NCBI GenBank assembly: GCA_002238505.1 | Contig: MPMM01000028.1 | Location: forward strand, 1-33,015 | Direction of reading: 5' to 3' | From: SAR202 cluster bacterium bin22 | GTDB taxonomy: Bacteria; Chloroflexota; Dehalococcoidia; Lucifugimonadales; UBA3495 | DNA length: 33,015 nucleotides | Shown here: positions 22,765 through 30,756 of the stretch, in pieces | Position numbering within the stretch: the first letter of the stretch is position 1 | Layout of the letters: each line of letters begins with the position of its first letter | The notes under the pieces: model-generated | Told to the model about the DNA's origin: nothing | The model's database searches: none | What the model saw: only the letters and a program-made list of their open reading frames with translations | Made by a program: the position numbers and the translations under genes

Positions 22765-23232
22765 TCAGCACGCCAAACCCTCGGCGGCCTTGAGTTCTTC
22801 CGCCACCTTGCGGGCCTGCTTCTCGCACTGGCTCCAGCCCAGAGTCTCGGGGATCAGTCCCTTGTCAGTCAGGTGGCGACGGAAGGTAACGATGGTACCC
22901 ATTCGCTTGGCATTAATGCCCAGGTCGCGCACCAGGTGTTCGTTCAGGCTGTCCAGTTCCATGGAGTTCTCTTCAAGCTCAGAGCTCAGGTTAACCACCG
23001 CATCTCCCAGTTCCCACATCTTTCTGGCGGGAATGGGGGTGCGCTTGCTCTTGAGTTGCTCAATGTCGGCCAGCACTTCTCGCATAGCCTCCACCGTGCG
23101 GCCATAGGCATTGCAGGCGCCCTGCAGGCACACCTCAGGCCTTTCACCCAGTCGTTCCAGTTGAGCCAGGGGCACAGAAGCTACAAATCCCTCGTCGCGA
23201 GGTTCCAAGGCTATCATTGCAGGGGAACCCAA
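22765..23232 (-). CDS. Unrecognised 155-residue helical protein
   Basis: I do not recognise this family. The sequence is soluble and mostly helical, with an acidic amphipathic stretch (L-S-S-E-L-E-E-N-S-M-E-L-D) in the middle and W-E-L-G-D, F-R-R-H-L and G-W-S-Q-C-E-K-Q-A-R-K near the end. The basic/aromatic C-terminal third could bind nucleic acid, but this is a guess. The start is TTG 23232, with GGAGG 8 nt upstream; the ATG 15 nt on has no site. It precedes thiL by 65 nt on the same strand. Codon use resembles its neighbours, so it is a real gene. Confidence 0.7.
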   Translation of the reverse strand: MGSPAMIALEPRDEGFVASVPLAQLERLGERPEVCLQGACNAYGRTVEAMREVLADIEQLKSKRTPIPARKMWELGDAVVNLSSELEENSMELDSLNEHLVRDLGINAKRMGTIVTFRRHLTDKGLIPETLGWSQCEKQARKVAEELKAAEGLAC

Positions 23233-23471: not shown

Positions 23472-24398
23472 TTACGCCCCAAATAACCGCGCAGCCCCGG
23501 ATTCGGGTATCAAGCCCGAGAAAAGCTCGGGGTGGATCATTTCTGCCATGATTTCGAGCCCGACGACCAGGCGCGGTCCGGAGCGACTGGTGTAGGCGCC
23601 TGCGTCTATGGCATAGACCCGATTGTTCTTCACCGCCGGCAGGCTGGACCATTCCTCCTTTTCGGACAGCAGAGGTACATCATCCAGCGCTCTTCGGACG
23701 TCGAAGCCGCAGGGCATCATGATAATTACTTCGGGCTGGCTGGCCACTATCTCGTCCCATTCCAGGCGGAAGGAGCCGGTCTCCTTGTCGCCAAAACAGT
23801 TTTCGCCACCGGCCATTTCCACCATTTCCGGTACCCAGTGCCCTCCGCACATAAGAGGATCAACCCACTCCAGATGCAGTACTCCCGGACGGCGGGGGAT
23901 ATCGGCAGTTTTGGCAGCGATATTATCAATACGCTGCTGCATCTCCCCGGTTATTCTTTCGGCCGCTGCCTCGGCTCCTGTGGCCTGGCCCACCCGCCGG
24001 ATGTCCTCCAGGACATCGCCGACATACTGGGGGTCCAGTGACAACACCTGGGGCTGCTTGGGAAGGCTTACGCTGACCTCGGCAACCTGCCGAGATGATA
24101 TAGCTCAAACCTCGCAGATGGCCTGGGTCAAAAGGAGGTCCGGTTCCGCCGCCTCCATGGTGGGCTGGTCAATTTCGTAGATGCCCAGCCCCTGTTCCAG
24201 GCGTTCGGAGATAACCCGGCTGATTTCACCGCTGCTGGGTTGAGGATCCATTCCTTCAAAAACGCTGCGGACCACCCAGGGCTTGTTCCTGACCGAGGCA
24301 GGGTAGTCGCATTCATGTGTTACGCCGTAAAGCTGGTCCTCCAGGCCCAGCATGTAGACAATCTCAGTGGCGCTGGGCAAAAACGAGCAAATACGCAT
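23472..24398 (-). CDS. BtuF-like (cobalamin-binding/ABC substrate-binding fold) protein with in-frame TGA; candidate selenoprotein (Sec98)
   Basis: One reading frame of 308 codons runs from ATG 24398 (AGGAGA 6 nt upstream) to 23472, interrupted only by TGA at 24107-24105. Before it: [24 protein letters not shown] and L-L-T-Q-A-I-C-E-V. After it, in the same frame: A-I-S-S-R-Q-V, L-S-L-D-P, then H-L-E-W-V-D-P, G-G-E-N-C-F-G and [12 protein letters not shown]. Relatives I know read C-E-V-C-A-x-S here, so the TGA replaces the second cysteine of a CxxC. A hairpin follows at the spacing of bacterial SECIS elements. No other lesion is present and the total length is normal (~300). There is no signal peptide and no permease or ATPase nearby. 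The alternative is a nonsense mutation giving a 97-residue product. Confidence 0.8.
24076..24107 (-). promoter_or_regulatory. SECIS-like hairpin after the in-frame TGA
   Basis: Right after TGA (24107-24105) and 17 nt, the apical loop GGT (24087-24085) is closed by the perfect 7-bp stem CTCGGCA (24094-24088) / TGCCGAG (24084-24078). A T-G wobble and an A-T pair extend it to 9 bp. A short loop starting with G at this distance from the UGA is what bacterial SelB-dependent SECIS elements need. The E. coli fdhF element carries a GCA-GGU-type tip as well. Confidence 0.65.
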
Positions 24399-26933: not shown

Positions 26934-27842
26934 TTGAATATCACCTACCATGTCAAATGGGGCAAGTGTGCCCTGCTCATCCTTGTTCTTTGCCTGCTGG
27001 TCGTTTCACTGGCGTGTAGCTCTTCATCAGAGAGTGAGCCTGTGCTGAAAGTGGGTGGAATACCTGACCAGGACACCGAACGCCTGGCCAGAAGGTACAG
27101 TATTTTTTCGGACTATCTGGAGAAGGAGCTGGGCGTGAATGTTGAGTACGTGCCCAGCGCGAATTACGCGGCAGTGGTAACTGCCTTCGGGCAAGGGGAG
27201 TTGCAACTGGCCTTCTTTGGAGGACTGACGGGGGTGCAGGCCAGGCAACAGAATCCCGGGGCTGTGGCCATCGCCCAGAGGGAGAACGACGCTACCTTCC
27301 ATTCCAAGTTCATTGCCCGCGCTGACCTGGACCTGGAATCTTTGGAGGATGTGAAGGAGCAGGCTGGTGAATACACCATAACCTTCGGCAGCGAAAGCTC
27401 CACGTCTGGACACCTGATGCCCCGCCACTTCCTGGTACAGACGGGAATAGAGCCGGACGAAGATTTCCGCACGCCGCCCAGCTATTCCGGCTCCCACGAC
27501 AATACCTGGCTGCTGGTCGAATCCGGGTCTTACGATATCGGCGCGCTGAACGAAGAGGTATGGGACCGTGCCGTGCAGGAAGGCAAGGTTGACACTGGAA
27601 GGGTAAGGGATTTCTACACCACTCCCGACTACTTTGATTATAACTGGACGGCACAGGGTGACCTGGACGAAGTGTATGGCGATGGCTTTACCTCCCGGGT
27701 GCAGTCGGCCTTGTTCAGGCTGAACCCTGAGGAGCATGGCAAGATACTGGAACTGTTCAGCACCGAAAGGTTCATTGAAACGAACAACGCCAACTACGAC
27801 GCCATCGAAGGGGTTGCCCGGGAACTGGGTATGATCAAGTGA
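26934..27842 (+). CDS. phnD: Phosphonate/phosphite-type ABC transporter substrate-binding lipoprotein
   Basis: This 302-residue PhnD-family protein has an N-terminal signal (basic residues, then L-L-I-L-V-L-C-L-L-V-V) ending in the lipobox L-A-C with Cys28 as lipid-anchored residue. The core shows V-G-G-I-P-D-Q-D, Y-V-P-S-A-N-Y-A-A-V-V-T-A-F, the stretch L-Q-L-A-F-F-G-G-L-T-G-V-Q-A-R, and F-G-S-E-S-S-T-S-G-H-L-M-P. It would capture phosphonate, phosphite or a related oxyanion outside the membrane. The start is TTG 26934 with only GGGG upstream. It is first in the operon and its stop overlaps phnC by 4 nt. The ligand cannot be told from sequence. Confidence 0.92.
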   Translation: MNITYHVKWGKCALLILVLCLLVVSLACSSSSESEPVLKVGGIPDQDTERLARRYSIFSDYLEKELGVNVEYVPSANYAAVVTAFGQGELQLAFFGGLTGVQARQQNPGAVAIAQRENDATFHSKFIARADLDLESLEDVKEQAGEYTITFGSESSTSGHLMPRHFLVQTGIEPDEDFRTPPSYSGSHDNTWLLVESGSYDIGALNEEVWDRAVQEGKVDTGRVRDFYTTPDYFDYNWTAQGDLDEVYGDGFTSRVQSALFRLNPEEHGKILELFSTERFIETNNANYDAIEGVARELGMIK

Positions 27843-28675
27843 CCGCCCTGGAGACCGGATTGAAGGACTTGCCCGATAGCAACCCCCGCACGGTGGGACC
27901 GGCAGACGAAACTGCTCCGCTGGCGGTGGTGGACAACGTCACCAAGACATTCCCGCGGGTTACCGCCCTGGACCAGGTTGGCCTGACTATCAACGCTGGC
28001 GAACGGGTAGCCCTGGTGGGCCCGAGCGGCAGCGGCAAGACCACCCTGCTGCATCTCCTGTCCGGCATGGCGCAGCCCGACTCGGGCTCAGTTACCGTGG
28101 GAGGAAGGGAACTGTCCCATAACCTGCCCAGGCGGGAACTGTCGTCCCTGGTGGGGATAATCCACCAGCAACTGGACCTGGTGCCCCAACTGCCGGTTGT
28201 ACACAATGTGCTGGCCGGACGGTTCGGACATTGGGGCGTCTTCCGTTCATTTCTCTCCATGCTGTGGCCGCAGGACTATCCCCTGGCCGTTTCGGCCCTG
28301 CACCAGATGGGCATTGCCGACAAGATCCAGGAGAGGACCGCTCACCTATCAGGAGGGGAGCAGCAGCGGGTGGCAATCGCCCGCACCATGGTGCAGTCCC
28401 CACTGCTGGTGCTGGCCGACGAGCCTGTCTCTTCGGTGGACCCGGGCCGGGCCCAGGAGATTCTGCATCTGCTGGTAGGGCTGACTGAGGATTCGGGAAG
28501 GGCCCTGGTAGCCAGCATGCATACCCCTTACCTGGTGCGGCAGTTCTTCAGCAGGGCCGTTGGACTGAAGGACGGCCAGGTACACTTTGACATTCCAGCA
28601 CCTGAGTTGACTCAGGCCATCCAGTCGGACCTTTATGGCCTGGGCCAGGAAGAGTCCGCCCTCCACCACGGCTAA
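27839..28675 (+). CDS. phnC: Phosphonate-type ABC transporter ATP-binding protein
   Basis: This 278-residue ABC ATPase has Walker A G-P-S-G-S-G-K-T, the Q-loop H-Q-Q-L-D-L-V, signature L-S-G-G-E-Q-Q-R and Walker B L-L-V-L-A-D-E-P. The segment V-L-A-G-R-F-G-H is typical of PhnC. It starts with GTG within the phnD stop (GTGA) and has an N-terminal extension of about 25 residues before the ABC fold. It energises the PhnE permeases. Confidence 0.94.
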   Translation: MTALETGLKDLPDSNPRTVGPADETAPLAVVDNVTKTFPRVTALDQVGLTINAGERVALVGPSGSGKTTLLHLLSGMAQPDSGSVTVGGRELSHNLPRRELSSLVGIIHQQLDLVPQLPVVHNVLAGRFGHWGVFRSFLSMLWPQDYPLAVSALHQMGIADKIQERTAHLSGGEQQRVAIARTMVQSPLLVLADEPVSSVDPGRAQEILHLLVGLTEDSGRALVASMHTPYLVRQFFSRAVGLKDGQVHFDIPAPELTQAIQSDLYGLGQEESALHHG

Positions 28676-28692
28676 AGGCCGGATCGAACTCC

Positions 28693-29493
28693 ATGAGACC
28701 GGCTCGTCCCCTCCTGGAGAGCCCCCACTTCCTGAGCCTGCTGCTGCTCGGGGCGGTAGCGTGGAGCGTTACCGGAATTGGGTGGGGAGAGCCGCTGCTT
28801 CATACGGGCGGTGGCGACTCGGCCCTCGACTTGCTGCTGGCGTTGTTCCCGCCGGACCTGTCCCCCTCCTTTCTGCTGGTCTGTTTGCAGGCAGCCTGGC
28901 AGACGCTGTCCATAGCCCTTGCGAGCATTACCGTGGCCGTCCTCCTCGGCTTTCCCCTCGGAGTGATGGCTTCGGGGGCGCTGGTTTCGCCCAACTCCCG
29001 CTTGCGGGCCCCCCTGATGATCTCCTCCCGATTCGTCCTGGGGACATTGCGGTCCATCCACGAACTGGTATGGGCGGTGCTGCTGGTGGCGGCGATCGGA
29101 CTGTCTCCTCTGGCGGCCATAGTGGCCCTGGGTTTGCCTTACGCCGGAATCCTGGGGCGCATCTACGCCGAGTTCCTTGAGGATACGCCGGAGGATCCAT
29201 TGACCGCCCTGCGGTCAGCCGGGGCGTCGTCGTGGCAGACGCTGATCTTCGGGCGTTTGCCCATGAGCACTCCCGACCTGGTGAGCTATACCTTCTACCG
29301 GTTTGAGTGCTCCATACGGTCGGCAGCCATACTCAGCTTTGTGGGGATTCGGGGCATAGGCTACGAGATTCAGCTCTCCCTGGGCGAACTGCTGTTCAGC
29401 CAGGTCTGGACCCTGCTGCTGATACTGCTGGCAATTGTCGCACTGGTGGACTTCTGGAGCGGACGGGTTCGGCAGAGCCTGGTGGAGTCATGA
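28693..29493 (+). CDS. phnE: Phosphonate-type ABC transporter permease 1
   Basis: This 266-residue PhnE-type integral membrane protein has about six segments. The ABC-interacting loop appears as S-A-G-A-S-S-W-Q-T-L-I-F-G-R-L-P, and R-S-I-H-E-L-V-W-A-V-L is typical of PhnE. It is 17 nt downstream of phnC and overlaps the second permease by 4 nt. Confidence 0.92.
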   Translation: MRPARPLLESPHFLSLLLLGAVAWSVTGIGWGEPLLHTGGGDSALDLLLALFPPDLSPSFLLVCLQAAWQTLSIALASITVAVLLGFPLGVMASGALVSPNSRLRAPLMISSRFVLGTLRSIHELVWAVLLVAAIGLSPLAAIVALGLPYAGILGRIYAEFLEDTPEDPLTALRSAGASSWQTLIFGRLPMSTPDLVSYTFYRFECSIRSAAILSFVGIRGIGYEIQLSLGELLFSQVWTLLLILLAIVALVDFWSGRVRQSLVES

Positions 29494-30371
29494 TAGAGAC
29501 GAGAGAACCAACCCGGTACACGGAGAGGCGCAGGCGGAAACCCCCCTTCGCCCGCCTGTCGTTCTACACCTTCCTGGGGCTGATAGCGGTTGCCTGGGGG
29601 TACATCTTCATGGCCGGGGACAGTGGCTTCACGATGCTGCTGGAAGGGCGGACCTGGGAGAATGCCTGGCAGTTCCTGATGAGGCTGGCCGGAGCTGACC
29701 TGGACGAAGGGCCTGCGTTCCTGCAGGCGGAGCAGTGGTGGGCCACCGGACGGCTGGCCTACAACACGCTGGCCATGAGCGTGCTGGCCATTGGCATAGC
29801 CGGGTTTGGGACCTTTCTGACCTTCATCTTCGCCGCCCGCAACATGAGCTCGGGAAGCCTGGGCGGCACACCGTCGCGGCTGGGCGCGGTGGTCTATTAC
29901 CTGCTGCGAATCTTCTATGCCTTCACCAGGGCGGTCCCGGAGCTGGTGTGGGCAATGCTGATCGTCTTCTTCCTCTCGCCGGGCATTTTACCGGGGGCGA
30001 TTGCGCTGGGGATACACAACCTGGGCATTATGGGCCGACTGGCGGCCGAGGTGGTGGAGGACATGGACCCGGCGCCGGCACGAGCAATGAGGGCTTCGGG
30101 GGCGGGCATCTTCCAGATATTCCTGTACGCCATCCTGCCCCAGACGCTGCCTCACTTCATTACGTACCTGCTGTACCGGTGGGAGGTGGTGATCAGGACG
30201 ACGGTGGTGGTGGGGTTTGTCAGCGCGGGCGGGCTGGGGCTGGAGATGCGGCTGAACCTGAGCTTCTTCCACTATGACCAGGTGACGCTGCTGATATTGT
30301 GGTACCTGCTGCTGGTTATCGGGGTGGACTTCCTGAGCGCCTGGATGCGCAAGCTGGCCCGTTTTGACTGA
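29490..30371 (+). CDS. phnE: Phosphonate-type ABC transporter permease 2
   Basis: This 293-residue PhnE-type protein starts at ATG 29490 inside the stop of the first permease (ATGA). It has R-A-V-P-E-L-V-W-A-M-L and the coupling loop R-A-S-G-A-G-I-F-Q-I-F-L-Y-A-I-L-P. The two permeases probably form a heterodimeric pore. No C-P lyase or phosphonatase genes follow, so the phosphorus compound is handled by enzymes outside the window. Confidence 0.92.
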   Translation: MIETREPTRYTERRRRKPPFARLSFYTFLGLIAVAWGYIFMAGDSGFTMLLEGRTWENAWQFLMRLAGADLDEGPAFLQAEQWWATGRLAYNTLAMSVLAIGIAGFGTFLTFIFAARNMSSGSLGGTPSRLGAVVYYLLRIFYAFTRAVPELVWAMLIVFFLSPGILPGAIALGIHNLGIMGRLAAEVVEDMDPAPARAMRASGAGIFQIFLYAILPQTLPHFITYLLYRWEVVIRTTVVVGFVSAGGLGLEMRLNLSFFHYDQVTLLILWYLLLVIGVDFLSAWMRKLARFD

Positions 30372-30457: not shown

Positions 30458-30756
30458 CCCATCCTAGCCTTCCCCCTTCGAGGGGGAAGGGACTCTTGTG
30501 CCCATCCTAGCCTCCCCTGTCGAGGGGGAAGGGACTCTTGTGCCCATCCTGGCCTTCCCCGGTCGAGGGGGGAAGGGACTGTTGTGCCCACCCTAGCCTT
30601 CCTTGTCGAGGGGGAAGGGACTTTTGTGCCCATCCTAAACTTCCCCTGTCGAGGGGGAGGGGATTTTTGTGCCCATCCTGGCCGCCCCCTTCGAGGGGGA
30701 AGGGGCTGTTGTGCCCATCCTGAACTTCCCCGGTCGAGGGGGGAAAGGGCTGATGC
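30458..30756. repeat. Seven tandem copies of a 42-44 bp palindromic repeat
   Basis: Copies start with CCCATCCT (CCCACCCT in the fourth) at 30458, 30501, 30543, 30587, 30629, 30672 and 30714, so the periods are 43, 42, 44, 42, 43 and 42. Each contains a palindrome of the type CTTCCCC-xxTCGA-GGGGAAG followed by GGGACTnTTGTG. The copies differ by several substitutions. One more copy lies at 31687. Both strands are open through the array, but the periodic peptides are low-complexity artefacts. Confidence 0.92.

Follow-up and report, generated by a model that had tools for sequence, protein, structure and literature searches.

A BtuF-like protein of SAR202 bacteria with a probable selenocysteine at an in-frame UGA codon

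Does the single UGA inside a BtuF-like gene of SAR202 cluster bacterium bin22 interrupt that gene, or is it read as selenocysteine? The gene occupies positions 23472-24398 on the minus strand of the window, by which we mean the whole stretch of 33,015 nucleotides analyzed here. The window makes up a single contig of a draft genome of 4.39 Mb, estimated to be 97% complete; in the named collections, the near relatives of this genome belong to the SAR202 / Dehalococcoidia MAGs of the Chloroflexota. A sequence-only reading of the window had proposed that residue 98 of the encoded protein is selenocysteine. We consider it probable, at roughly nine chances in ten, that UGA-98 is decoded in this way; the evidence is comparative and comes from genomes.

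Reading frame and selenocysteine machinery

Translation of the minus strand from 24398 to 23472 yields 308 sense codons closed by TAA, with a single TGA at codon 98 (24107-24105). Residues typical of the family stand on both sides of this codon in the same frame, so the frame and its unshifted continuation are as the sequence-only reading had described them. The genome contains the entire set of selA, selB, selC and selD. The tRNA-Sec scores 67.5 bits and is also recovered by ARAGORN, with the anticodon UCA, while SelA, SelB and SelD score 542, 348 and 386 bits, respectively. The selD gene (L087, G000:C57:40142-41065) itself carries an in-frame TGA followed by a SECIS-like, G-tipped hairpin, AGGACCTG-GTA-CAGGTCCT, and is an internal positive control for selenocysteine decoding in the bin22 genome.

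A TGA at a cysteine position could in principle be decoded as cysteine, and one may also think of a suppressor tRNA, of a reassignment to tryptophan or of a regulated partial stop. We regard this group of readings as very improbable. TGA ends 7 of the 25 ORFs counted in the window and is therefore not globally reassigned; general reassignment is rejected on this ground, TGA serving here as an ordinary stop. The complete selABCD set speaks against the other variants as well, as does a hairpin of the bacterial SECIS (bSECIS) type that is specific to the TGA copies of the gene.

The hairpin downstream of the UGA

The hairpin, CUCGGCA-GGU-UGCCGAG, lies at 24078-24094 on the minus strand, with the 5' arm at 24094-24088, the loop at 24087-24085 and the 3' arm at 24084-24078. 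The 7-bp stem and the GGU tip had been recognized before, but the start assigned to the stem, 17 nt after the UGA, is in fact that of the loop: the stem begins at 24094, 11 nt after the UGA, and the loop at 24087, 18 nt after it (UGA-loop spacing of 16-17 nt). No other 24-nt stretch of the coding sequence is as stable, and synonymous recoding matches the energy of the hairpin with p = 0.003. The published bSECIS rules (PMC13188914) specify a loop of 3-9 nt with a G in the first two positions, a stem of 4-16 bp, a distance of 16-37 nt from the UGA and an MFE of at most -7.5; the window hairpin conforms to them, with -12.2 kcal/mol.

Comparison of homologues ties the hairpin to the UGA codon. 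The same rules are satisfied by 47 of the 52 distinct TGA segments, as against 2 of the 53 Cys segments; five TGA copies miss the strict version with a perfect stem. In the synonymous-codon control, TGA copies have a median z of -2.0 and Cys copies one of +0.8. Four pairs of the stem (13-25, 14-24, 15-23 and 16-22) are formed in all 51 distinct TGA segments of the main clade, and compensatory changes occur at pairs 12-26, 14-24 and 15-23, one of them T-A to G-C and the others, at two pairs, G-C to A-T. Among the Cys homologues, pairing at these columns is limited to 13-50% of the sequences.

Conservation of the codon

We compared codon 98 across 149 homologous loci and found TGA in 95, a cysteine codon (TGC or TGT) in 54, and nothing else. 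Many of these loci are the same genes taken from two collections, and they reduce to 52 distinct TGA and 52-53 distinct Cys segments of DNA. The earlier statement that relatives have cysteine at this place thus holds for 54 of 54 loci without TGA. Copies with the single TGA are present in 47 of the 99 genomes searched, which comprise the window genome and its relatives, at identities down to 53%. The codon is kept in nearly the whole SAR202 family to which the window genome belongs; the five genomes of this family that lack a TGA copy are only 56-75% complete. When 393 genomes of the class were surveyed, close full-length TGA orthologues fell, among the matches listed, exclusively in the family of the window genome; the survey of relatives adds TGA copies in another two families within the order.

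This distribution also bears on the simplest suspicion, that the TGA is a nonsense mutation in a decaying gene or a fault of sequencing or assembly. The window does stem from a draft assembly, one of 58 contigs. The same TGA, however, recurs in 47 separately assembled genomes, in proteins as little as 53% identical, and is never replaced by TAA or TAG; the changes that separate close relatives downstream of it are mostly synonymous, and the hairpin covaries. Since the TGA is conserved between genera and even between families, we reject a pseudogene or an assembly error, which we find scarcely credible. The selenocysteine genes, the cysteine of the relatives and the persistence of UGA plus hairpin in other genomes all agree with selenocysteine at residue 98, as had been proposed.

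The bin22 genome holds two more BtuF-like paralogues, L081 (G000:C55) and L082 (G000:C16), both with cysteine at the selenocysteine place. Some relatives (G009, G010 and G013) have two or more UGA copies each.

Origin of the selenocysteine codon

In the gene tree, the SAR202 selenocysteine copies form one clade (99/96) nested among cysteine copies. The arrangement is what a change from cysteine to selenocysteine in the ancestor of the SAR202 family clade would leave behind. A homologue from Planctomycetota also has UGA at the place of codon 98, in a genome with tRNA-Sec, and two relatives of this homologue, at approximately 70% identity, retain the UGA. The three planctomycetotal copies (L179, L180 and L181, from genomes G474, G476 and G475, respectively) carry hairpins of 7-8 bp with a GGGU or AGGU tip, located farther from the UGA, and they fall outside the SAR202 selenocysteine clade. 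A single origin of selenocysteine for SAR202 and Planctomycetota is disfavored, though not firmly rejected (AU p = 0.069). A second, independent change from cysteine to selenocysteine has probably taken place in Planctomycetota.

Protein fold and the four cysteine or selenocysteine positions

Pfam identifies the protein as Peripla_BP_2 (PF01497) with 87 bits. An AlphaFold2 model with a pLDDT of 93.7 superimposes with Z 24.5 and 2.5 A on E. coli BtuF (1n2z) over nearly the full length. Proteins of the same fold that bind haem, siderophores or nickel reach scores similar to that of BtuF in this comparison, and the fold therefore does not fix the ligand. NCBIfam has no model that reaches its cut-off for this protein; the best cobalamin-specific model, the BtuF equivalog NF002894, gives 34.8 bits, far short of its cut-off of 234.

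The protein has no export signal. Its first strand starts at residue 3, the conserved family start falls at residue 1-2, and only about 10 open codons precede the ATG; the relatives likewise begin directly with the first strand, from which the lack of a signal peptide follows. We therefore class it as BtuF-like and not as BtuF proper.

Four alignment columns, 30, 95, 98 and 230, contain cysteine or selenocysteine in 51 of 51 aligned members. In the window, the codons of the three invariant cysteines are found on the minus strand at 24309-24311 (Cys30, in T-H-E-C-D-Y-P), 24114-24116 (Cys95, the first residue of C-E-V-U) and 23709-23711 (Cys230, in M-P-C-G-F-D). In the AlphaFold2 model, columns 30, 95/98 and 230 sit in the loops after strands 23-27, 88-91 and 224-227. 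Loops that follow the beta strands in a BtuF-type fold face the ligand cleft. By this analogy of fold, we infer that the four residues line the ligand cleft.

Possible function and gene context

How might such a protein work? Translation would rely on SelB and Sec-tRNA(Sec) decoding UGA-98 under the direction of the GGU-tipped 7-bp hairpin, the stem of which begins 11 nt after the codon. The product would be a cytosolic protein of the BtuF/Peripla_BP_2 fold with Sec98 as one of four invariant chalcogens (C30, C95, U98 and C230). It may bind an intracellular corrinoid or a similar metal-containing ligand, with the selenolate serving as a ligand of the metal or as a reductant or nucleophile acting on the cofactor.

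Gene neighborhoods offer some guidance. A cysteine orthologue from a Methylomirabilis genome has CobQ and a BtuB-like receptor as neighbors, and one from a Dadabacteria genome is likewise adjacent to a BtuB-like receptor. The window genome itself encodes B12-binding domains and also a cobalamin adenosyltransferase of the PduO type. These neighbors, together with the B12 genes of the genome, favor binding of an intracellular corrinoid (or a similar metal ligand) with selenocysteine at the ligand site, a suggestion that we hold tentatively and at somewhat below even odds. Around the SAR202 gene we found no operon with B12 genes; its usual neighbors are an antiporter of the CPA2 type, which lies upstream, and a protein with a LON-substrate-binding domain on the other strand.

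Other features of the window are mentioned here for completeness. Just downstream of the BtuF-like gene, an ORF of 154 aa (22765-23232) matches nothing in Pfam or NCBIfam at E 1e-5. Four consecutive plus-strand ORFs at 26934-30371 resemble, by eye, a phosphonate-type ABC importer (a binding protein, an ATPase and two permeases). A tandem array at 30458-30742 consists of 6.7 copies of a 42-base unit and can also be seen as 3.3 copies of 85 bases.

Two alternatives accept the selenoprotein and differ in what the selenium does. The CxxU arrangement is frequent in known selenoproteins as a redox motif, and C95 and U98 might form a thiol/selenol pair that reduces disulfides or peroxides instead of holding a cofactor or metal. 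The sequence-only reading had leaned on this classic role, which stands as one option; the additional invariant cysteines, C30 and C230, are at least equally compatible with a site for a ligand or metal. The catalogued motif of the family is simply CxxU (PMC13188914), in line with a redox pair, but the fold is that of a two-lobed binding protein and not of thioredoxin, and CxxU by itself leaves cysteines 30 and 230 unexplained. We see the redox pair as possible and lean against it. Alternatively, the four chalcogens might hold a metal or metalloid (for example, a Hg, Ni or Co ion) and no corrinoid. The four invariant columns suit such a site, and the fold is shared by nickel-, haem- and siderophore-binding proteins; the CobQ and BtuB-like genes beside cysteine orthologues point to corrinoids instead, and we rate the bare metal as rather unlikely.

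Returning to the corrinoid or metal ligand, a more ambitious picture can be drawn of a selenoprotein for intracellular corrinoid or metal handling. The selenolate and three invariant cysteines would come together within the cleft of the BtuF-like fold, selenium would act directly on the bound cobalt or metal as a ligand or as a dealkylating or reducing group, and cysteine would have given way to selenocysteine on two occasions, one in SAR202 Chloroflexota and one in Planctomycetota. Taken as a whole, this picture is doubtful. Should a corrinoid or metal indeed be bound by the four chalcogens, selenium would be linked to intracellular B12 or metal handling.

Comparison with known systems

The sequence-only reading knew of no described selenoprotein of this family, and here the literature contradicts it. 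A table of 2022 (PMC9312934) lists "Cobalamin-binding protein BtuF, cd01144, CxxU" as a predicted selenoprotein family under accession RUA21600.1, and a table of 2026 (PMC13188914) has the same entry under MDE0719563.1. Both reviews credit the family to Peng et al. 2016 (PMC5029168), an attribution that rests on PMC9312934 and PMC13188914: BtuF goes unmentioned in the body of the article by Peng et al. 2016, and in the deep-Sep paper. The catalogued family shares with the SAR202 protein the named fold and a C-x-x-U motif with one selenocysteine (here C95-E-V-U98). It is known by name, motif and one accession per table, and the two likely belong to the same orthologous group.

The BtuF proteins of E. 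coli and Vibrio cholerae (1n2z, 1n4a and 5ysc) have the same two-lobed fold over the full length, with Z of about 24 and 2.4-2.9 A, but share only 18-22% identity with the SAR202 protein. E. coli BtuF is periplasmic, bears an N-terminal extension (the signal peptide) and lacks both the CxxC/U motif and the cysteines at 30 and 230; the alignment to it is gapped over the CxxU loop. SaoB and SaoX (PMC13188914) are likewise named ABC-transporter substrate-binding proteins and contain selenocysteine, yet their motifs, CUxxT and UxP, and their separate NCBIfam families set them apart by description. SelD of the same genome has in common with the BtuF-like gene the in-frame TGA and the downstream G-tipped hairpin, and presumably the decoding machinery; its protein is unrelated, and its selenoprotein family has long been known.

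The SAR202 gene adds a well-supported member to a family that had already been predicted, rather than founding a new one. For a family catalogued only by name and motif, the comparisons supply strong evidence of selenocysteine, a trait kept across nearly all of one family of this ocean lineage, in which ordinary annotation would yield truncated genes. Relative to the literature found, the set of four chalcogens, the missing signal peptide, the planctomycetotal lineage and the covariation of the hairpin are new.
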